A stretch of DNA of 64,000 bases, from assembly GCF_003856495.1 (NCBI RefSeq), contig NZ_CP034118.1, positions 1,406,001-1,470,000 of the forward strand. Direction: 5' to 3'. The notes under the pieces were generated by a model. It made no database searches. It saw only the letters and a program-made list of their open reading frames with translations, and was not told where the DNA came from. A program made the translations under genes and the position numbers. This DNA is from Staphylospora marina. GTDB lineage: Bacteria; Bacillota; Bacilli; Thermoactinomycetales; Thermoactinomycetaceae. Positions 5,770-12,673 of the stretch are shown piece by piece (position 1 is the first letter of the stretch; every line of letters begins with the position of its first letter).

Positions 5770-7722
5770 CTACATCACCCTTTTGAACATTTTCTCCAGA
5801 TCCCGGGTGGAGAAGTGAACGAAAACGGGGCGGCCATGCGGACAGGTGTAAGGATTGTCGCATCCGTCAAGTTGCTCCAGAAGCGCCTCCATCTCCTCCC
5901 TGCGCAAATGCCGGTTGGCTTTGATCGCCGCCTTGCAGGCCATCATCTTGGCACTCGCGTCCCTGACCTTCGACGTTTCCACCTTCCCCGATGATTTCAG
6001 CCAATCGATGATTTCATGCAAAAGCGCAACCGCGTCCTCTTTCGGGAACCAGGATGGATAGGCGCGCACCAGCCAGGTGCTTCCGCCGAACGGCTCCAGA
6101 TCGAGTCCCCATCCGTGAAGTTGTACCCTGTGCATCTCCAAAATTTCCGACTCCGCCGGCGTACACTCCACGGTGAGCGGGATCAACAGAGGCTGTTGAT
6201 CCGACACGTTCTCTTCCATTTTCCGCAAAAAATACTCGTAGTAAATCCGTTCGTGCGCGGCATGCTGGTCGATCAGGTAAAAACCGTCTTCCGACTGGGC
6301 CACCACATAGGTTCCGTGCACCTGCGCCAGCGGTTGCATCATCGGCATCCGCCTTCGTTCCGTTTCCCGGTCCTCTTCCGCTTCAAAGATCTCCATTTCC
6401 CGGGCTTCTTCCGGCTCCCCGTGCAGCTGCCCGCCTGCTGACGGCCGGTTTTCGGCAGCGGGAGTCGGCCGCTGAGGTTCCCACGGATCCCGGACCGCCT
6501 CTCGCACGCGAAGCGGTTCTTCCTTCGAACTTGATTCGGCATGGTATGCCACCGCGGAAGACCGGTCTCCGATTCGGGGAAGGGCCGGTTCGTCGACCGG
6601 CGACCGCATTGGGACCGTTTCCGAAGAGCGCGGGGAACCATCACCGGGAGCTTTCCAATCCAGTGCCTCCTGGACGACCTCCGTTCGCCGGATTCGGGCC
6701 CCTCCCGGGTCCGTCCAGGCCGACGGGATCAGGTGTTGACGTTGAAGGGCTTCACGGACGGCCCGTTCTATCAGGCGACAACATTCCGATTCCTTGCTGA
6801 GGCGTACTTCCAGCTTGGCCGGATGCACATTGACATCCACCAGTTTCGGATCCATCCGGATCATCAATACGCCAATCGGCCATCTGCCCGAAGGCAGCAG
6901 AGTGCCGTACGCGCGGAGAACGGCCTGCACGAGCGGAACGGAACGCACATTCCGTCCGTTGAGAATCACCGAGAGGTGAGAACGACCGGACCGGGTCACC
7001 TCCGGCCTCGTCAAAAACCCCTCCACTTCAAAATCCATGTCTTCCGCCCGGAAAGGCACCATTTTTCCGGACACTTGCCTGCCGTAAAGAGCATGCAACA
7101 CATGAAGCACCTTGCCGTCTCCGGATGTCCGGAGGAGCTCCCGGGCATCGTGGTGAAGGGAGAACGCGATCCCGGGGTGGGCAAGAGCCAGCCGGCTGAC
7201 CGCATCGGCCACGTGACTGACTTCCGTGCCCACCGTTTTCAGGTACTTGAGCCTGGCCGGGGTATTGAAAAACAGATCGCGCACTTCCACATCTGTGCCC
7301 CGGGAACGGTTTGTCTCCTCCACACGCAGGATTTTTCCGCCTTCCATCGAGACCCGGGTCGCGGATTCCCCGGAATCACAGGAGGTGGTCAACGTCACTT
7401 TCGCCACGGAAGCGATGCTGGGCAACGCTTCCCCGCGAAATCCCAAGGTCCGGATGGAGAACAGATCCCTTTTTTGACGGATCTTGCTGGTGGCGTGCCG
7501 CGAAAAAGCCAGGACGGCATCTTCCGCATCCATGCCGGATCCGTTGTCCGACACCCGAATCAGCGAGATCCCTCCTTCTTCGATGCGAACCTGAATCCGG
7601 GAAGCACCTGCATCGATCGCGTTCTCCACGAGTTCCTTCACCACCGAGGCCGGTCTCTCCACCACTTCACCCGCGGCGATCTGGTTGGCCAGATGATCGT
7701 CCAGCAGCCGGATCTTTCCCAT
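5770..7722 (-). CDS. mutL: DNA mismatch repair protein MutL
   Basis: A 650-residue MutL with an N-terminal GHKL ATPase (VENAIDAGA, DNGSGMD, TLGFRGEALPSIASV), a variable linker at about 330-450, and a C-terminal dimerisation/endonuclease domain. The endonuclease metal site DQHAAHERIYYE is present, as expected for organisms lacking MutH, so this MutL can be expected to nick DNA. The C-terminal CPHGRPV motif is also intact. ATG at 7722 follows GGAGGAGGG. It lies 31 nt after mutS, its functional partner. Since mutL itself is intact, loss of mismatch repair would depend on whether the mutS intron splices. Confidence 0.97.
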   Translation of the reverse strand: MGKIRLLDDHLANQIAAGEVVERPASVVKELVENAIDAGASRIQVRIEEGGISLIRVSDNGSGMDAEDAVLAFSRHATSKIRQKRDLFSIRTLGFRGEALPSIASVAKVTLTTSCDSGESATRVSMEGGKILRVEETNRSRGTDVEVRDLFFNTPARLKYLKTVGTEVSHVADAVSRLALAHPGIAFSLHHDARELLRTSGDGKVLHVLHALYGRQVSGKMVPFRAEDMDFEVEGFLTRPEVTRSGRSHLSVILNGRNVRSVPLVQAVLRAYGTLLPSGRWPIGVLMIRMDPKLVDVNVHPAKLEVRLSKESECCRLIERAVREALQRQHLIPSAWTDPGGARIRRTEVVQEALDWKAPGDGSPRSSETVPMRSPVDEPALPRIGDRSSAVAYHAESSSKEEPLRVREAVRDPWEPQRPTPAAENRPSAGGQLHGEPEEAREMEIFEAEEDRETERRRMPMMQPLAQVHGTYVVAQSEDGFYLIDQHAAHERIYYEYFLRKMEENVSDQQPLLIPLTVECTPAESEILEMHRVQLHGWGLDLEPFGGSTWLVRAYPSWFPKEDAVALLHEIIDWLKSSGKVETSKVRDASAKMMACKAAIKANRHLRREEMEALLEQLDGCDNPYTCPHGRPVFVHFSTRDLEKMFKRVM

Positions 7723-7753: not shown

Positions 7754-10291
7754 TCAATTCAGCTTTTTCTTGAGTTCGTGAATCAGCAGCATGCAATCCA
7801 TGGGTGTTTTGTTCATCAGGTCAAAATCACGAAGAGCACGGAGCGCTTCCCGTTCCTCCTGAGAAAGCACCGGCACGGCGGATGCGGGTTGAACGGTCGC
7901 GGCCGTTTCGGAGACGAAGTCGTCGAACAGGCTGAGTTGTCCGTTTTCCGGTGTCGTCCGGGGGCCATCTTCCCGGCTCTCCCGGTCCGCCCCCTCCAGA
8001 TCTGCAAGCAGGTTTCTCGCCCTGTCGATCACTTCTTGGGGAAGGCCCGCCAGCTCGGCGACGTGAATGCCGTAACTCCGGTCGGCGCCTCCGGGAACGA
8101 TGCGGTACAAAAACACCACTTTCCCGTCTCTTTCCACACACCGGGCGTGAACGTTGACCAGATCTTTCAGCTGACCTTCCAACCGTGTCAACTCATGATA
8201 ATGAGTGGAAAACAGAGTCTTTGCCCCCACCCGGTCGTGAATGTGTTCCACGATCGCTTGCGCGAGTGCCATTCCGTCATAAGTGGATGTGCCACGTCCC
8301 ACTTCATCGAGCAAAATCAGACTGCGGGGAGTGGCTTCTTTCAATGCCCGGCAGGTTTCCGTCATCTCCACCATGAAGGTGCTGCGTCCCCCGATCAAAT
8401 CGTCGGCCGCTCCGATCCGGGTGAAGATGCGGTCGATGATTCCCACTTCCGCTTCGGCAGCCGGAACATAGGAACCGATCTGGGCCATCACGGCGATCAG
8501 GGCGACTTGTCGCATGAAGGTGCTCTTGCCGGCCATGTTGGGACCGGTCACCAACAAAATCCGACGGCTGTTTGCATCGAGCTCAACGTCATTGGCCACG
8601 AAATGGCCGTCCGGCGAGACCGCCTCCACCACCGGATGACGTCCGTCTTTGATGTACAAACGATCTCCCCGGGTGACGACGGGACGCACATAGCCGTAAT
8701 GACGGGCGACCTGGGCGAAAGCCCTCAAAACGTCCAGTTCGGCCACTTTTCCCGCCAACTCTTGCAACCGGAGCACCTCTTTCGCCACCTTGGCCCGAAC
8801 GTTCGTGAAGAGTTCGTACTCCATCTCCACCGATTTTTCCGCGGCATGAAGAATCCGTTCTTCCCGCTCCTTCAACTCCGGCGTGACATACCTCTCCGCG
8901 TTGGCCAGCGTCTGTTTTCGGATGTAGCGTCCTTCCGGAACCAGATGCAGATTGGACTTGGTCACTTCGATGTAATATCCGAACACCCGGTTGTAGCCGA
9001 TTTTCAAGGATTTGATCCCGGTCTCTTCGCGTTCCTTTTTTTCCAGGGAGGTGATCCAGCTTTTTCCGTCTTTCTGAATGTTCCGGAGCTCATCCAGCCG
9101 GTCGCTGTACCCTTCGCGAATCATGCCGCCTTCCTTGACCGAAACGGGCGGATCGTCCACGATGGCCCGCTCCACCAGTTCGCGGATGTCCGCGCATTCA
9201 TCGAGCGATTCCCCCGATTTCCTGAGGCGGGGACAACCGGCTTCGATCAGCAACCGTCGAAGATCCGGAATGACGGACAAGGACCGTTTCAGGCTGACAA
9301 GGTCCCGGGCATTGGCGGATCCGAACGAAATCCTCGCCGCCAGGCGCTCCAGGTCGTACACCTGCTTGAGTAAATCGGTAACCTCGTCGAACAGAATCCA
9401 GTCGTCGAGGAACGCTTGCACCACATCTTGTCTGGCCTGGATCTCCCCCAATTCCAGCAGGGGTTTGTCCAGCCATTTTTTGATCAGCCGGCTGCCCATG
9501 GCCGTCGCCGTTTTGTCCAGGAGCCACAGAAGCGATCCTTTCCGTTTCCCCTCCCCCAGCGTCACCGTGAGTTCCAGGTTTCTTCGGGCCGATTCGTCCA
9601 GCACCATGTATTGTCTGGCATCGTACCGGCGAAGACGTGTCAGATGTCCCAAAGACCGCTTTTGCGTCGCCGTCAGATACCCCAGCAAGACCGTGGCCAC
9701 CCGTCGGAGCAACGGCGTGTCACAGATTTCATCGAACCGCTCGAACTGCCGGGGGAGAGCCTCCAAGATCCCTGATTCCTCCGCGGGATCCGGAGTGAAG
9801 GGAGTGATGACCGCTTTCAATCGGAGCGTGATGGCTTGCCGCAATGCCGACTGTGAAGCCAGGGTCTCATCCAGCACCACCTCGCGAGGTTGGTATGAAG
9901 ACACTTCATCCAACCATCGATCGAAAGATCCGCTCCACTGCGTCACATGGCATTCGCCGGTGGAAAGGTCGGCCGCGGCGAGCGCCATGTCCTGTCCGTT
10001 GCCGCTCAGCACCACCAGGAAATTGTTTTCCTGATCCACCAGCATGTTTTCTTCCATCACCGTGCCGGGCGTGATCACCCGAACCACTTCGCGGCGGACC
10101 ACTCCCTTGGCTTCCGCCGGATTTTCCACCTGCTCGCAGATGGCCACCTTGTAACCTTTTTCGATCAGACGTTCCACATATGTATGTGCGGAATGAAAGG
10201 GAACTCCGCACATGGGGACCCGTTCTTTTCCTCCATCCCGACTGGTCAGCGTGATTTCCAGTTCTTTCGCCGCTTTGAGCGCATCATCAAA
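7754..10291 (-). CDS. mutS: DNA mismatch repair protein MutS, exon 2 (codons 35 to end)
   Basis: Exon 2 encodes 845 residues beginning FDDALKAAKELE; joined to exon 1 (12572-12673) it gives a MutS of about 879 residues. It contains the rest of the mismatch-binding domain (SRDGGKERVPMCGVPFHSAH), connector, lever and clamp domains, and the ATPase with Walker A GPNMAGKSTFMRQ, Walker B LILLDEVGRGTSTYDG and STHYHEL. MutS scans DNA for mispairs and recruits MutL. An ATG at 10213 could start a shorter product, but that lacks exon 1 and the FYE motif. The 5' end at 10291 is set by continuity with exon 1 across the group II intron, not by a start codon. Confidence 0.92.
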   Translation of the reverse strand, partial: FDDALKAAKELEITLTSRDGGKERVPMCGVPFHSAHTYVERLIEKGYKVAICEQVENPAEAKGVVRREVVRVITPGTVMEENMLVDQENNFLVVLSGNGQDMALAAADLSTGECHVTQWSGSFDRWLDEVSSYQPREVVLDETLASQSALRQAITLRLKAVITPFTPDPAEESGILEALPRQFERFDEICDTPLLRRVATVLLGYLTATQKRSLGHLTRLRRYDARQYMVLDESARRNLELTVTLGEGKRKGSLLWLLDKTATAMGSRLIKKWLDKPLLELGEIQARQDVVQAFLDDWILFDEVTDLLKQVYDLERLAARISFGSANARDLVSLKRSLSVIPDLRRLLIEAGCPRLRKSGESLDECADIRELVERAIVDDPPVSVKEGGMIREGYSDRLDELRNIQKDGKSWITSLEKKEREETGIKSLKIGYNRVFGYYIEVTKSNLHLVPEGRYIRKQTLANAERYVTPELKEREERILHAAEKSVEMEYELFTNVRAKVAKEVLRLQELAGKVAELDVLRAFAQVARHYGYVRPVVTRGDRLYIKDGRHPVVEAVSPDGHFVANDVELDANSRRILLVTGPNMAGKSTFMRQVALIAVMAQIGSYVPAAEAEVGIIDRIFTRIGAADDLIGGRSTFMVEMTETCRALKEATPRSLILLDEVGRGTSTYDGMALAQAIVEHIHDRVGAKTLFSTHYHELTRLEGQLKDLVNVHARCVERDGKVVFLYRIVPGGADRSYGIHVAELAGLPQEVIDRARNLLADLEGADRESREDGPRTTPENGQLSLFDDFVSETAATVQPASAVPVLSQEEREALRALRDFDLMNKTPMDCMLLIHELKKKLN

Positions 10292-10352
10292 GGTGAGTAG
10301 GAACCCGGCGCCTTTCCGCCTTTCGACGGCAGGTTTCCGGGAGCCCCTCTCC

Positions 10353-10386
10353 GAACCGCACGTACGCCTCTCGGCGTATACGGCTC
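10353..10386 (-). ncRNA. Group II intron domain V (catalytic hairpin)
   Basis: On the minus strand this is a 34-nt hairpin beginning GAGCCGTATACGCC, with a GAGA-type tetraloop, and ending GGCGTACGTGCGGTTC. It has the conserved size of domain V and the AGC catalytic-triad position near its start. Domain VI and the 3' splice site follow (10352-10292). An intact domain V argues that the ribozyme is still capable of splicing. Confidence 0.85.
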
Positions 10387-10525
10387 TCCACTTGCCTTCC
10401 GGTCCGGCACGGCGGACACGAAGATCCTGAAATCATCATCATTGACGGAACCGCGATCGGTCCCGCTCGCGCTGATCACCTGCTGCAACTCAACATCCCG
10501 GAAAACGTTCACCCGGTTCCGAACG

Positions 10526-12055
10526 TCAGGTTCCGGGCATTCGTTTGTGCGAAAATCCGCCGGGCAGCAAGTCCGCTTCTTCCGGCAGAACCCGTGTGTC
10601 CCGTTTGAATCCCCGATCATAAAGCACGGCACGTTTCATTCCGCTTTTCGTCCGGTACTCCACCGTGAACCGCCCGTCCCTCAGGTACCTCCCGAGAATC
10701 CTGGACACCGAGGTTTTGTACTTGCCTGCGAATGTCTTGTACATGCTGTACTTCATGATGTAAAAGAACTTTCTCAGGACATTCACGTTATCGGCCAGCC
10801 TGTAGTAATTGTACAAACCCTCGATTTCCGCATTGTAAACGTTCAGAATCTCGACGTCCTCCAAACGGGCGAGACGGGGAAGATGCATGGCGCGCCATCG
10901 ACCCTTTTCATCGATCTTCAGAACCTTCAATTGCAAAAGCCTGTTCATCCATGTTTCCTTCGGCACGCAGAGCCTGCATCTCATGTTGTCAAGCCGCGCC
11001 CCGGTTCCGCTCGTTCCTCCGGGGACAACGTCGGGTCTCGGGATGACAATGTCATGGGCGAGAAATCGGACCGGTTCGGACGAGTGGGTGATGAGGAGAT
11101 TCTCTTCCGGCAGGGAAACATTCAGACGTTCCCGTGCAAAAGCGGCGATCTCCTCCCGGATCCGCCTCGCATCCGCTTTGCTCCCGATGATTCCGATCAG
11201 GAAGCGGTCGGCGTATCGCACATGGCGGAGACGTTTGTTGCCCCCGTCCGTCGGACCCGCTCCGGTCGGATTCGGCTGAAATCCGGATCCTTCGAAACGT
11301 TCCCGGATGTCCGCCACATGCTTGTCCAACCGGTCGAGAAAGATGTTCGTCAGGACGGGACCGATGATCCCTCCTTGCGGTGTTCCGCTGTACGTGCCGT
11401 GATATCTCCAGTCTTTCAAATACCCGGCACGCAGGAACTTCCGGATCAGGTTGACGAACCTCTCGTCCTCGATTCTCTTTTTGAGGATTTCCACCAGTTT
11501 TTGGTGATCGATGTTTTCAAAGACCCCACCGAGATTTCCCTGAATGAACCATCGAACTCCCGTGAAACGTTCCCGGATGTGCATGAGAGCGGTGTGGCAG
11601 CTCCTTCCGGGTCTGAATCCGTGCGATTCATCCGAGAAGCTTCCCTCAAAAATGGCTTCGAGAATCATCCGGCAGACTTCCTGAACCAGCAAATCATCAA
11701 TGGCGGGTGATCGCGGCGGGTGTTTCGTTCCGACTTTCGTCGCGCAGACCTTCACGGGTTGATACGTTTGGTCTTTCAACTTTTCGATGATGGTTCGGAT
11801 CTTTCCGGCACAGGTTCCGTCCATGCCCCGTTCCCCCGCCGTCCGGTCGACCACGCCCTTTCGGGCAGACAGACGGTTCAGGGCCAGCCAAAAAAACTCC
11901 TCGTTGTAGAAGTTTCTGTACAGTCTCCGGAACTTGTACCTGTCATCCTTCGCTTTCCGTGCCAGACTGTTCAATACCGCCTTGGGATTTCTCACAGAGC
12001 CTCTCGCTCCTTCCCAATTCCGGATCAAACGAGGCAAGCTGCCCCCCTTCGCCAT
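10526..12055 (-). CDS. ltrA: Group II intron-encoded maturase/reverse transcriptase, LtrA type, RT active site degenerate
   Basis: A 509-residue intron-encoded protein in domain IV. RT blocks are recognisable: LVQEVCRMILEAIF, SHGFRPGRSCHTAL, YSGTPQGGIIGPVLTNIFL. The X/maturase region follows (about 380-480, ...LNVYNAEIEGLYNYYRLADNVN). There is no C-terminal HNH endonuclease domain. Catalytic residues are altered: the motif A aspartate in the usual EGDIKG is Asn (QGNLGG, about residue 174), YADD is YADR (281-284), and the RPLGIP stretch is HPPRSPAI. Known biology: maturase function in splicing does not need RT activity. Inference: the protein is retained for splicing mutS while retrotransposition is lost. 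Confidence 0.9.
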   Translation of the reverse strand: MAKGGSLPRLIRNWEGARGSVRNPKAVLNSLARKAKDDRYKFRRLYRNFYNEEFFWLALNRLSARKGVVDRTAGERGMDGTCAGKIRTIIEKLKDQTYQPVKVCATKVGTKHPPRSPAIDDLLVQEVCRMILEAIFEGSFSDESHGFRPGRSCHTALMHIRERFTGVRWFIQGNLGGVFENIDHQKLVEILKKRIEDERFVNLIRKFLRAGYLKDWRYHGTYSGTPQGGIIGPVLTNIFLDRLDKHVADIRERFEGSGFQPNPTGAGPTDGGNKRLRHVRYADRFLIGIIGSKADARRIREEIAAFARERLNVSLPEENLLITHSSEPVRFLAHDIVIPRPDVVPGGTSGTGARLDNMRCRLCVPKETWMNRLLQLKVLKIDEKGRWRAMHLPRLARLEDVEILNVYNAEIEGLYNYYRLADNVNVLRKFFYIMKYSMYKTFAGKYKTSVSRILGRYLRDGRFTVEYRTKSGMKRAVLYDRGFKRDTRVLPEEADLLPGGFSHKRMPGT

Positions 12056-12571
12056 GTGGCAGGCTTTCCCTGCCCCGGACTACTACGGGGGCTCCGTCAC
12101 CATATCGGATATTCAGGCACCGGACGTGCCATAGCCGGTTCATCTCCGGCGTTCCGACTTAGGTGATCCCCGTTTAGGCATCCGATGACGGGCATGTTGC
12201 AGTGTCGGATGGGACGTTCGCCCTTTCATCCCTTACCGGGCGCGAGCGGCCGCGGGACGCTCTGAGATGCCGCCATGTTTTTATGCGGATCTCCGTCGGC
12301 CGGATGGTGTGTCAGCTGCCTTTCACCATCGTCTACGATGTGACCTCTCGGGCTGTCCTTCAAGCAGTGTAGCCTTCATCCTCATCTGCAACGGTTTCGT
12401 CTCGCCACTCAGTCGCACCGTGGCAGCCCGGTGACTTGTGACTTTACCGGCATGCTGCACTCCCCATCGGGTTTCCCCTCCGGATCAGCCGGTTGACGAC
12501 AGGCCGTGTGTTCGCGTCCTGGGCCTGCTGCCTTGCCAGGGCAGATTCATCGGAAGCCCTTACGGGCGCAC

Positions 12572-12673
12572 AAACATTTCGTAGAAATCACCGAGCCTGA
12601 AAAACAAAAAGGCATCCGGATACTGTGCCTTGATGGACAAATATTGCTGAATCATCGGCGTGTATTGTCCCAC
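12572..12673 (-). CDS. mutS: MutS exon 1 (codons 1-34, ends after the FYE mismatch-recognition motif)
   Basis: The GTG start at 12673 lies 8 nt after GGAGGG. The 34 codons read [17 protein letters not shown], then [17 protein letters not shown], the invariant MutS N-terminus. The Phe and Glu of FYE contact the mispaired base in known MutS structures. The frame stops in unspliced RNA three codons into the intron (GTG CGC CCG TAA), so a functional N-terminus needs splicing. The exon is too short to be obvious by itself and would be missed by ordinary gene callers, giving an apparent N-terminally truncated mutS. Confidence 0.93.

Follow-up and report, generated by a model that had tools for sequence, protein, structure and literature searches.

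A group II intron in the only mutS gene of Staphylospora marina, and its protein, which looks like a maturase and no longer a reverse transcriptase

The split mutS gene

The window, a stretch of 64,000 nucleotides from the genome of Staphylospora marina (positions without a locus prefix refer to it), carries on its minus strand a mutS gene in two pieces and, directly 3′ of it on the same strand, mutL (5770–7722). Exon 1 of mutS (12572–12673) comprises codons 1–34, starts with GTG, ends with GDFYEMF and matches positions 1–30 of the Pfam profile MutS_I (E = 6e-12); exon 2 (7754–10291) comprises codons 35–879, takes up MutS_I at position 31 and continues with MutS_II to MutS_V. Both exons are far over the cut-off in the Pfam profile search, which bears out the first-pass annotation in placing codons 1–34 at 12673–12572 and the next codon at 10291, and the uninterrupted mutS genes of 15 relatives confirm the exon boundaries. 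Joined, the exons form a stop-free open frame of 879 amino acids with all five MutS domains intact. Between them lies, in the same orientation and as had been proposed, a group II intron of 2,280 nt (10292–12571, minus strand), recognized by a match to the full model of Rfam family RF00029 and by the splitting of mutS at the same codon in eight other genomes. At such scores the question of chance does not arise for the exon and intron matches.

The genome of S. marina (family Thermoactinomycetaceae; 2.75 Mb, 2 contigs, 99.8% complete) was searched throughout for MutS domains. Domain I is present only in these two exons, so that a second intact mutS, which the first-pass annotation had wanted looked for, is not there; the two other candidates, a MutS2 with an Smr domain (L003) and a MutS_V protein lacking domain I (L004), are neither of them MutS1. 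The split gene is thus the sole MutS1 gene of the genome.

Intron ends and exon recognition

The intron begins with GTGCGCCCGTAA, the GTGCG at 12571–12567 conforming to the GUGYG consensus, and unspliced RNA would therefore be read as V-R-P and then stop, in agreement with the TAA noted earlier three codons into the intron. Domains V–VI together with the 3′ splice site (10292–10388, minus strand) match RF00029 with 56.3 bits (gathering score 40), and the match ends exactly on the base preceding exon 2. It is the only RF00029 match in the 2.75 Mb of the genome; there is no further copy. The 5′ end, GTGCGCCC, is likewise that of Ll.LtrB, the mobile group IIA, class ML intron of Lactococcus. Because of the RF00029 match, the site shared with eight other genomes and an intron-encoded protein (IEP) whose nearest relative is LtrA of Ll.LtrB, we regard the S. 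marina intron (GTGCGCCC...CTCACC) as kin of Ll.LtrB and probably of type IIA/ML. The likeness extends to an open reading frame in domain IV and to exon recognition via EBS1, EBS2 and delta.

EBS1 (AAACAT, 12275–12280, minus strand as are all the elements named here) forms six of six pairs with IBS1 (ATGTTT, 12572–12577) at the end of exon 1, and EBS2 (TCGTAG, 12333–12338) six of six with IBS2 (CTACGA, 12579–12584), also in exon 1, which makes 12 of 12. The A preceding EBS1 (delta, 12281) pairs with the T that is the first base of exon 2, as it does in all nine introns at this site. Across these nine, the pair formed by the third base of the exon Tyr codon and its partner in EBS2 is C-G in five introns, T-A in three and T.G in one (Fisher one-sided 0.048; p 0.03 when whole pairings are permuted), a covariation that in this small sample of related introns points toward a pairing kept by selection. 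At the chosen offset IBS2 forms on average 5.2 of 6 pairs and at other exon offsets at most 3.0 of 6, by which a placement one base nearer to the junction was ruled out.

The 3′ end is less regular. At 10292–10297 the sequence reads CACC|TT, whereas the eight relatives have CTAC|TT, and the only junction that keeps the frame leaves CC at the end of the intron in place of the usual AC (usual consensus AY). A cut one base earlier, after AC, would join ATGTTT to CTTTGATGA, resulting in a frameshift and a stop. The CC terminus could weaken or misplace the second splicing step, and splicing may be somewhat less accurate in this strain. One might go further and suppose that the intron splices so inaccurately that mutS is broken and the strain a natural mutator, as the first-pass annotation had considered: besides the terminus itself there is the out-of-frame AC one base upstream, and the domain V–VI score of 56.3 bits is the lowest among the introns compared. 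We consider this very unlikely. From the bulged A to the junction there are six bases in all introns, here when the in-frame junction is used, and this distance together with the delta-delta′ pair favors the in-frame junction. No stop interrupts the 879 codons, all five MutS domains are preserved, and the S. marina MutS, compared with that of an intact relative, has a dN/dS of about 0.10; in intron carriers MutS is generally under strong purifying selection (dN/dS about 0.08–0.10), unlike a dead gene, which does not support the mutator reading. A split mutS need not mean a pseudogene. Since the gene is the sole MutS1, both exons are conserved and the exon-recognition elements and domains V–VI are intact, mismatch repair in S. 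marina very probably depends on RNA splicing of mutS, as the first-pass annotation had suggested.

The intron-encoded protein

The IEP gene is located at 10526–11995 (minus strand) when read from GTG 11995, which is probably the start and gives about 489 amino acids; the longest frame begins with ATG 12055 and has 509 codons. The GTG is preferred since an in-frame stop separates the positions equivalent to 12055 and 11995 in several relatives. In a search of PDB sequences the IEP is nearest to LtrA (E 5e-99, the next best being 1e-26). Alignment with LtrA reveals that GDIKGCFD has become GNLGGVFE and YADD has become YADR, and hence that two of the three catalytic aspartates are lost, the RT3 Asp being replaced by Asn and the second Asp of YADD by Arg. 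An insert of roughly 45 residues between RT4 and RT5 is absent. An HNH endonuclease domain, present in the IEP at the same site in Shimazuella kribbensis, was not found in the S. marina IEP by Pfam or by alignment; a DNA endonuclease domain is present in many, not all, mobile group II introns.

Retained are the N-terminal LYRNFYN region, SHGFRPGRSCHTAL, SGTPQGG and domain X (YNAEIEGLYNYYRLA...YIMKYSMYKTFAGKYKTSV), the invariants of which are kept across the aligned mutS IEPs. An AlphaFold model (mean pLDDT 72.5, with six sequences in the alignment) matches intron-bound LtrA (8h2h) with E 1.6e-29 in Foldseek; in this model the LtrA-like fold with the maturase/thumb domain is retained, and sequence and fold agree in placing the protein in class ML (LtrA type). 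The 509-codon frame is still open, and its GC content by codon position (0.56/0.42/0.68, compared with 0.65/0.40/0.69 in mutS exon 2) is of the coding type, as in mutS and mutL. From the loss of the catalytic aspartates and of HNH and the retention of the maturase/thumb domain the IEP looks like a protein that is no longer a reverse transcriptase and acts as a maturase only, and the intron looks immobile and confined to splicing. LtrA, by comparison, is an active reverse transcriptase with HNH and supports a mobile intron, whereas the S. marina intron, with an apparently dead reverse transcriptase and no endonuclease, occurs as a single copy and in a housekeeping gene.

Introns at the same mutS codon in other genomes

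When about 85,000 species genomes were scanned for the pattern, 21 matches came up, of which 13 were not mutS and were dropped as chance. In eight other genomes mutS is interrupted at the same codon: six Thermoactinomycetaceae (Thermoactinomyces vulgaris DSM 43016, T. mirandus, T. daqus, Thermoflavimicrobium daqui, Shimazuella alba and S. kribbensis), one Bacillaceae (Bacillaceae bacterium Marseille-Q3522) and one Epulopiscium (Nele67-Bin005). Of 23 genomes of the family compared, 7 have mutS interrupted at precisely this codon and 15 have it whole, the remaining one, without a mutS match, being 68% complete; in the order the proportion is 7 of 42.

Six of the seven other mutS-resident IEPs have lost reverse transcriptase catalytic residues. 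The exception is that of S. kribbensis, in which GDIECFFD, YADD and HNH are all intact and whose intron has a second copy, 100% identical, at another site. In the S. alba IEP YADD has changed to YAND and all else is intact. In T. vulgaris and T. mirandus YADD is destroyed (YAGE and YGGE), RT3 is degraded and there is no HNH; Thermoflavimicrobium has lost the RT3 Asp (GGIQGCFE) and HNH is absent, YADD being kept; the Bacillaceae IEP has lost RT3 and reads YADA; and in the Epulopiscium protein (382 amino acids) the reverse transcriptase motifs are unrecognizable and domain X is kept. The intron of T. daqus has no open reading frame at all. It is 797 nt long and retains the domain IVa region, to which the IEP binds (DIVa). 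The same genome has a related intron in nrdB, the gene of the ribonucleotide reductase small subunit (L070:2288-4426), with an IEP that is itself RT-dead (GDIKRFFG and YAGD) and 49–52% identical to the S. marina IEP; this protein is a possible maturase in trans for the ORF-less mutS intron.

One and the same codon presents what look like several stages. In S. kribbensis the intron looks intact and mobile, in S. alba a single active-site residue has gone, and in T. vulgaris and T. mirandus the IEP is RT-dead and has been inherited since the two species separated. In S. marina it is RT-dead and the intron has no companion in the genome, T. daqus has an ORF-less intron together with a candidate for a maturase in trans, and in Epulopiscium the intron is minimal. 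The intact and recently copied S. kribbensis intron also raises the question whether the S. marina intron could still be a mobile retroelement served by a reverse transcriptase in trans. This is extremely improbable: its own reverse transcriptase is to all appearance dead and the endonuclease absent, the intron is single in the genome, and the one further reverse transcriptase gene of S. marina (L005:1501-2139) has no linkage to an intron and is not retrieved by similarity to the IEP. The product of L005 looks intact (YADD) and is perhaps retron-like.

Age, selection and descent

Between T. vulgaris and T. mirandus the RT-dead IEPs differ by a dS of 1.55 at a dN/dS of 0.25, and MutS by a dS of 1.65 at a dN/dS of 0.08. 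The similar dS values indicate that the RT-dead intron was inherited vertically and dates from roughly the time of the species split, and the IEPs are still under purifying selection. In the two Shimazuella species, the intron ORF has a dS of only 0.20 compared with 1.79 for MutS, from which it follows that the intron arrived recently by transfer. Because dS values as high as these are near saturation, only large contrasts in dS were used.

Single origin with vertical descent at the mutS site is unsupported. On the MutS tree the presence of the intron requires 7 changes, and a grouping of the S. marina IEP with those of T. vulgaris and T. mirandus is rejected (p 0.002), although a single clade of all mutS IEPs is not (p 0.076). 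For S. marina itself a conflict between host and intron is at most tentative, since the MutS data do not reject a placement of the species next to Shimazuella (p 0.18). Reading the tree by eye, and assuming that loss is irreversible, we count about eight losses of reverse transcriptase in the set, five of them at mutS; support is weak at several nodes and good for three of the mutS losses. A search for intron donors on plasmids and phages gave nothing closer than about 47% identity.

These data bear on the idea that the intron splices without protein and that the IEP frame is a relic. The intron of T. daqus at the same site is ORF-less, and C.te.I1, an independent ORF-less bacterial intron, self-splices in vitro (PMC4424553). 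We nevertheless think it unlikely. The S. marina frame has stayed open over 509 codons in spite of the loss of the reverse transcriptase and endonuclease sites, the domain X invariants are kept across the aligned mutS IEPs, and RT-dead relatives, in which selection was measured in place of S. marina itself, are under purifying selection (dN/dS 0.25 in the Thermoactinomyces pair and 0.33, at a dS of 0.44, in the soj introns of genomes G038 and G039). T. daqus, moreover, keeps the DIVa region and has the related maturase of its nrdB intron. In this respect T. daqus resembles bacteria with ORF-less introns that are spliced in trans (a cyanobacterial example and C.te.I1; PMC4424553), in that a related IEP is encoded elsewhere, and differs from them in that the candidate is RT-dead and resides in another housekeeping gene.

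From mobile element to splicing device

We therefore prefer, as very likely, the following explanation: an intron of the Ll.LtrB kind resides in the sole MutS1 gene and is spliced from the mutS-mutL transcript, and its IEP is solely a maturase, mobility having been lost after homing. A homing intron would target the run of hardly variable codons for GDFYEMF; it would have entered mutS in this way once or, in our preferred reading, several times. In a gene on which the cell depends, splicing would be selected and mobility not, so that the reverse transcriptase and endonuclease decay and domain X stays. The intron would be removed from the transcript through pairing of EBS1 and EBS2 with the end of exon 1, domains V–VI would catalyze the reaction, and the IEP would now serve only to help the intron RNA fold. 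From the comparisons above we infer that splicing takes place in vivo, that it depends on the IEP and that events ran in this order (entry, loss of mobility, obligatory splicing). The intron can be expected to persist, since its loss requires a precise deletion and loss of splicing would cost mismatch repair. What was once a jumping element now seems to serve as a permanent splicing device like those of organelles.

Organelles are where RT-dead maturases in housekeeping genes typically occur. The degenerate maturases found there (MatK in trnK, and those of nad1I4 and psbCI4; PMC4424553) have lost the reverse transcriptase site, kept domain X and are confined to splicing in a housekeeping host, as seems to be the case here, with the constraint on domain X measured in relatives. 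The S. marina IEP differs in being bacterial and chromosomal, in having arisen independently, in still residing in its own intron and in acting on that one intron; the action in trans on several introns known for MatK has no counterpart in a genome without another intron and is conceivable only in T. daqus. Group II introns of bacteria are mostly located outside housekeeping genes, a systematic search for domain V turned up a single bacterial one whose IEP is degenerate, and non-mobile bacterial derivatives seem not to persist for long (PMC4424553). The mutS site contradicts this; what would be new is a bacterial intron that has lasted long while only splicing, encodes a maturase-only protein and recurs at a single codon. 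A precedent, in a different gene, is the group II intron that splits recA, a housekeeping DNA-repair gene, of the thermophilic Bacillota species Geobacillus kaustophilus (Chee and Takami, 2005, as cited in PMC4424553). In the open-licence literature no paper was found on group II introns in Thermoactinomycetaceae or in bacterial mutS. So far, organelles have been the place to study the change from a retroelement to a splicing-only intron, and for the forerunners of the spliceosome it has been inferred; with the mutS introns it becomes open to experiment in culturable bacteria.

Related introns in other genes

mutS is not the only gene affected. In eight genomes of two families a related intron interrupts soj (parA) precisely within its Walker A motif, separating G from K in GGVG|KTTT (loci L079, L081, L084, L025, L019, L024, L026 and L027); seven of the eight IEPs are RT-dead, and together they form one clade with 100/100 support. 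nrdB and ssb, named by eye from the flanking translations, are likewise split by related introns. IEPs with an intact reverse transcriptase occur in the set in ssb, in one soj gene and in what by eye is an apparent transglycosylase gene.

The insertions in soj, nrdB and ssb suggest that mutS is not special, and this has to be weighed against the view that mutS splicing is a regulated step, kept because it is useful, by which temperature, Mg and maturase level set the mutation rate, a tuning that the first-pass annotation had raised as possible. Splicing of the sole MutS1 would indeed be obligatory, nine genomes have an intron at this site, and by re-targeting, group II introns can reduce the spliced mRNA of host genes in bacteria (PMC6003770). 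The presence of the intron is patchy, congeners have an intact mutS, and a conserved homing target explains the site well enough, so that we regard regulation of this kind as most improbable. Quite improbable, too, is a more specific version, in which maturase-dependent splicing is a maintained control point of the MutS level and the mutation rate and the nrdB maturase of T. daqus controls both introns. If it were true, temperature, Mg and maturase dose would alter splicing, with it the MutS level and finally the mutation rate, and in T. daqus a single RT-dead maturase would govern mismatch repair and nucleotide supply together.

The ssb introns (L078 and L080, in genomes G104 and G150) have IEPs in which both the reverse transcriptase and HNH are intact. 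G007, a genome of the same family (2.5 Mb, 4 contigs), contains at least 113 matches to group II domains V–VI; in places, as in C1:1852356-1858163, several of them follow one another at intervals of about 667 nt, as ORF-less introns in tandem would. In genome G012 two tandem IEP-like frames (L021:3-3185) lie upstream of the apparent second exon of an HU gene (hbs), possibly a twintron or a double insertion.
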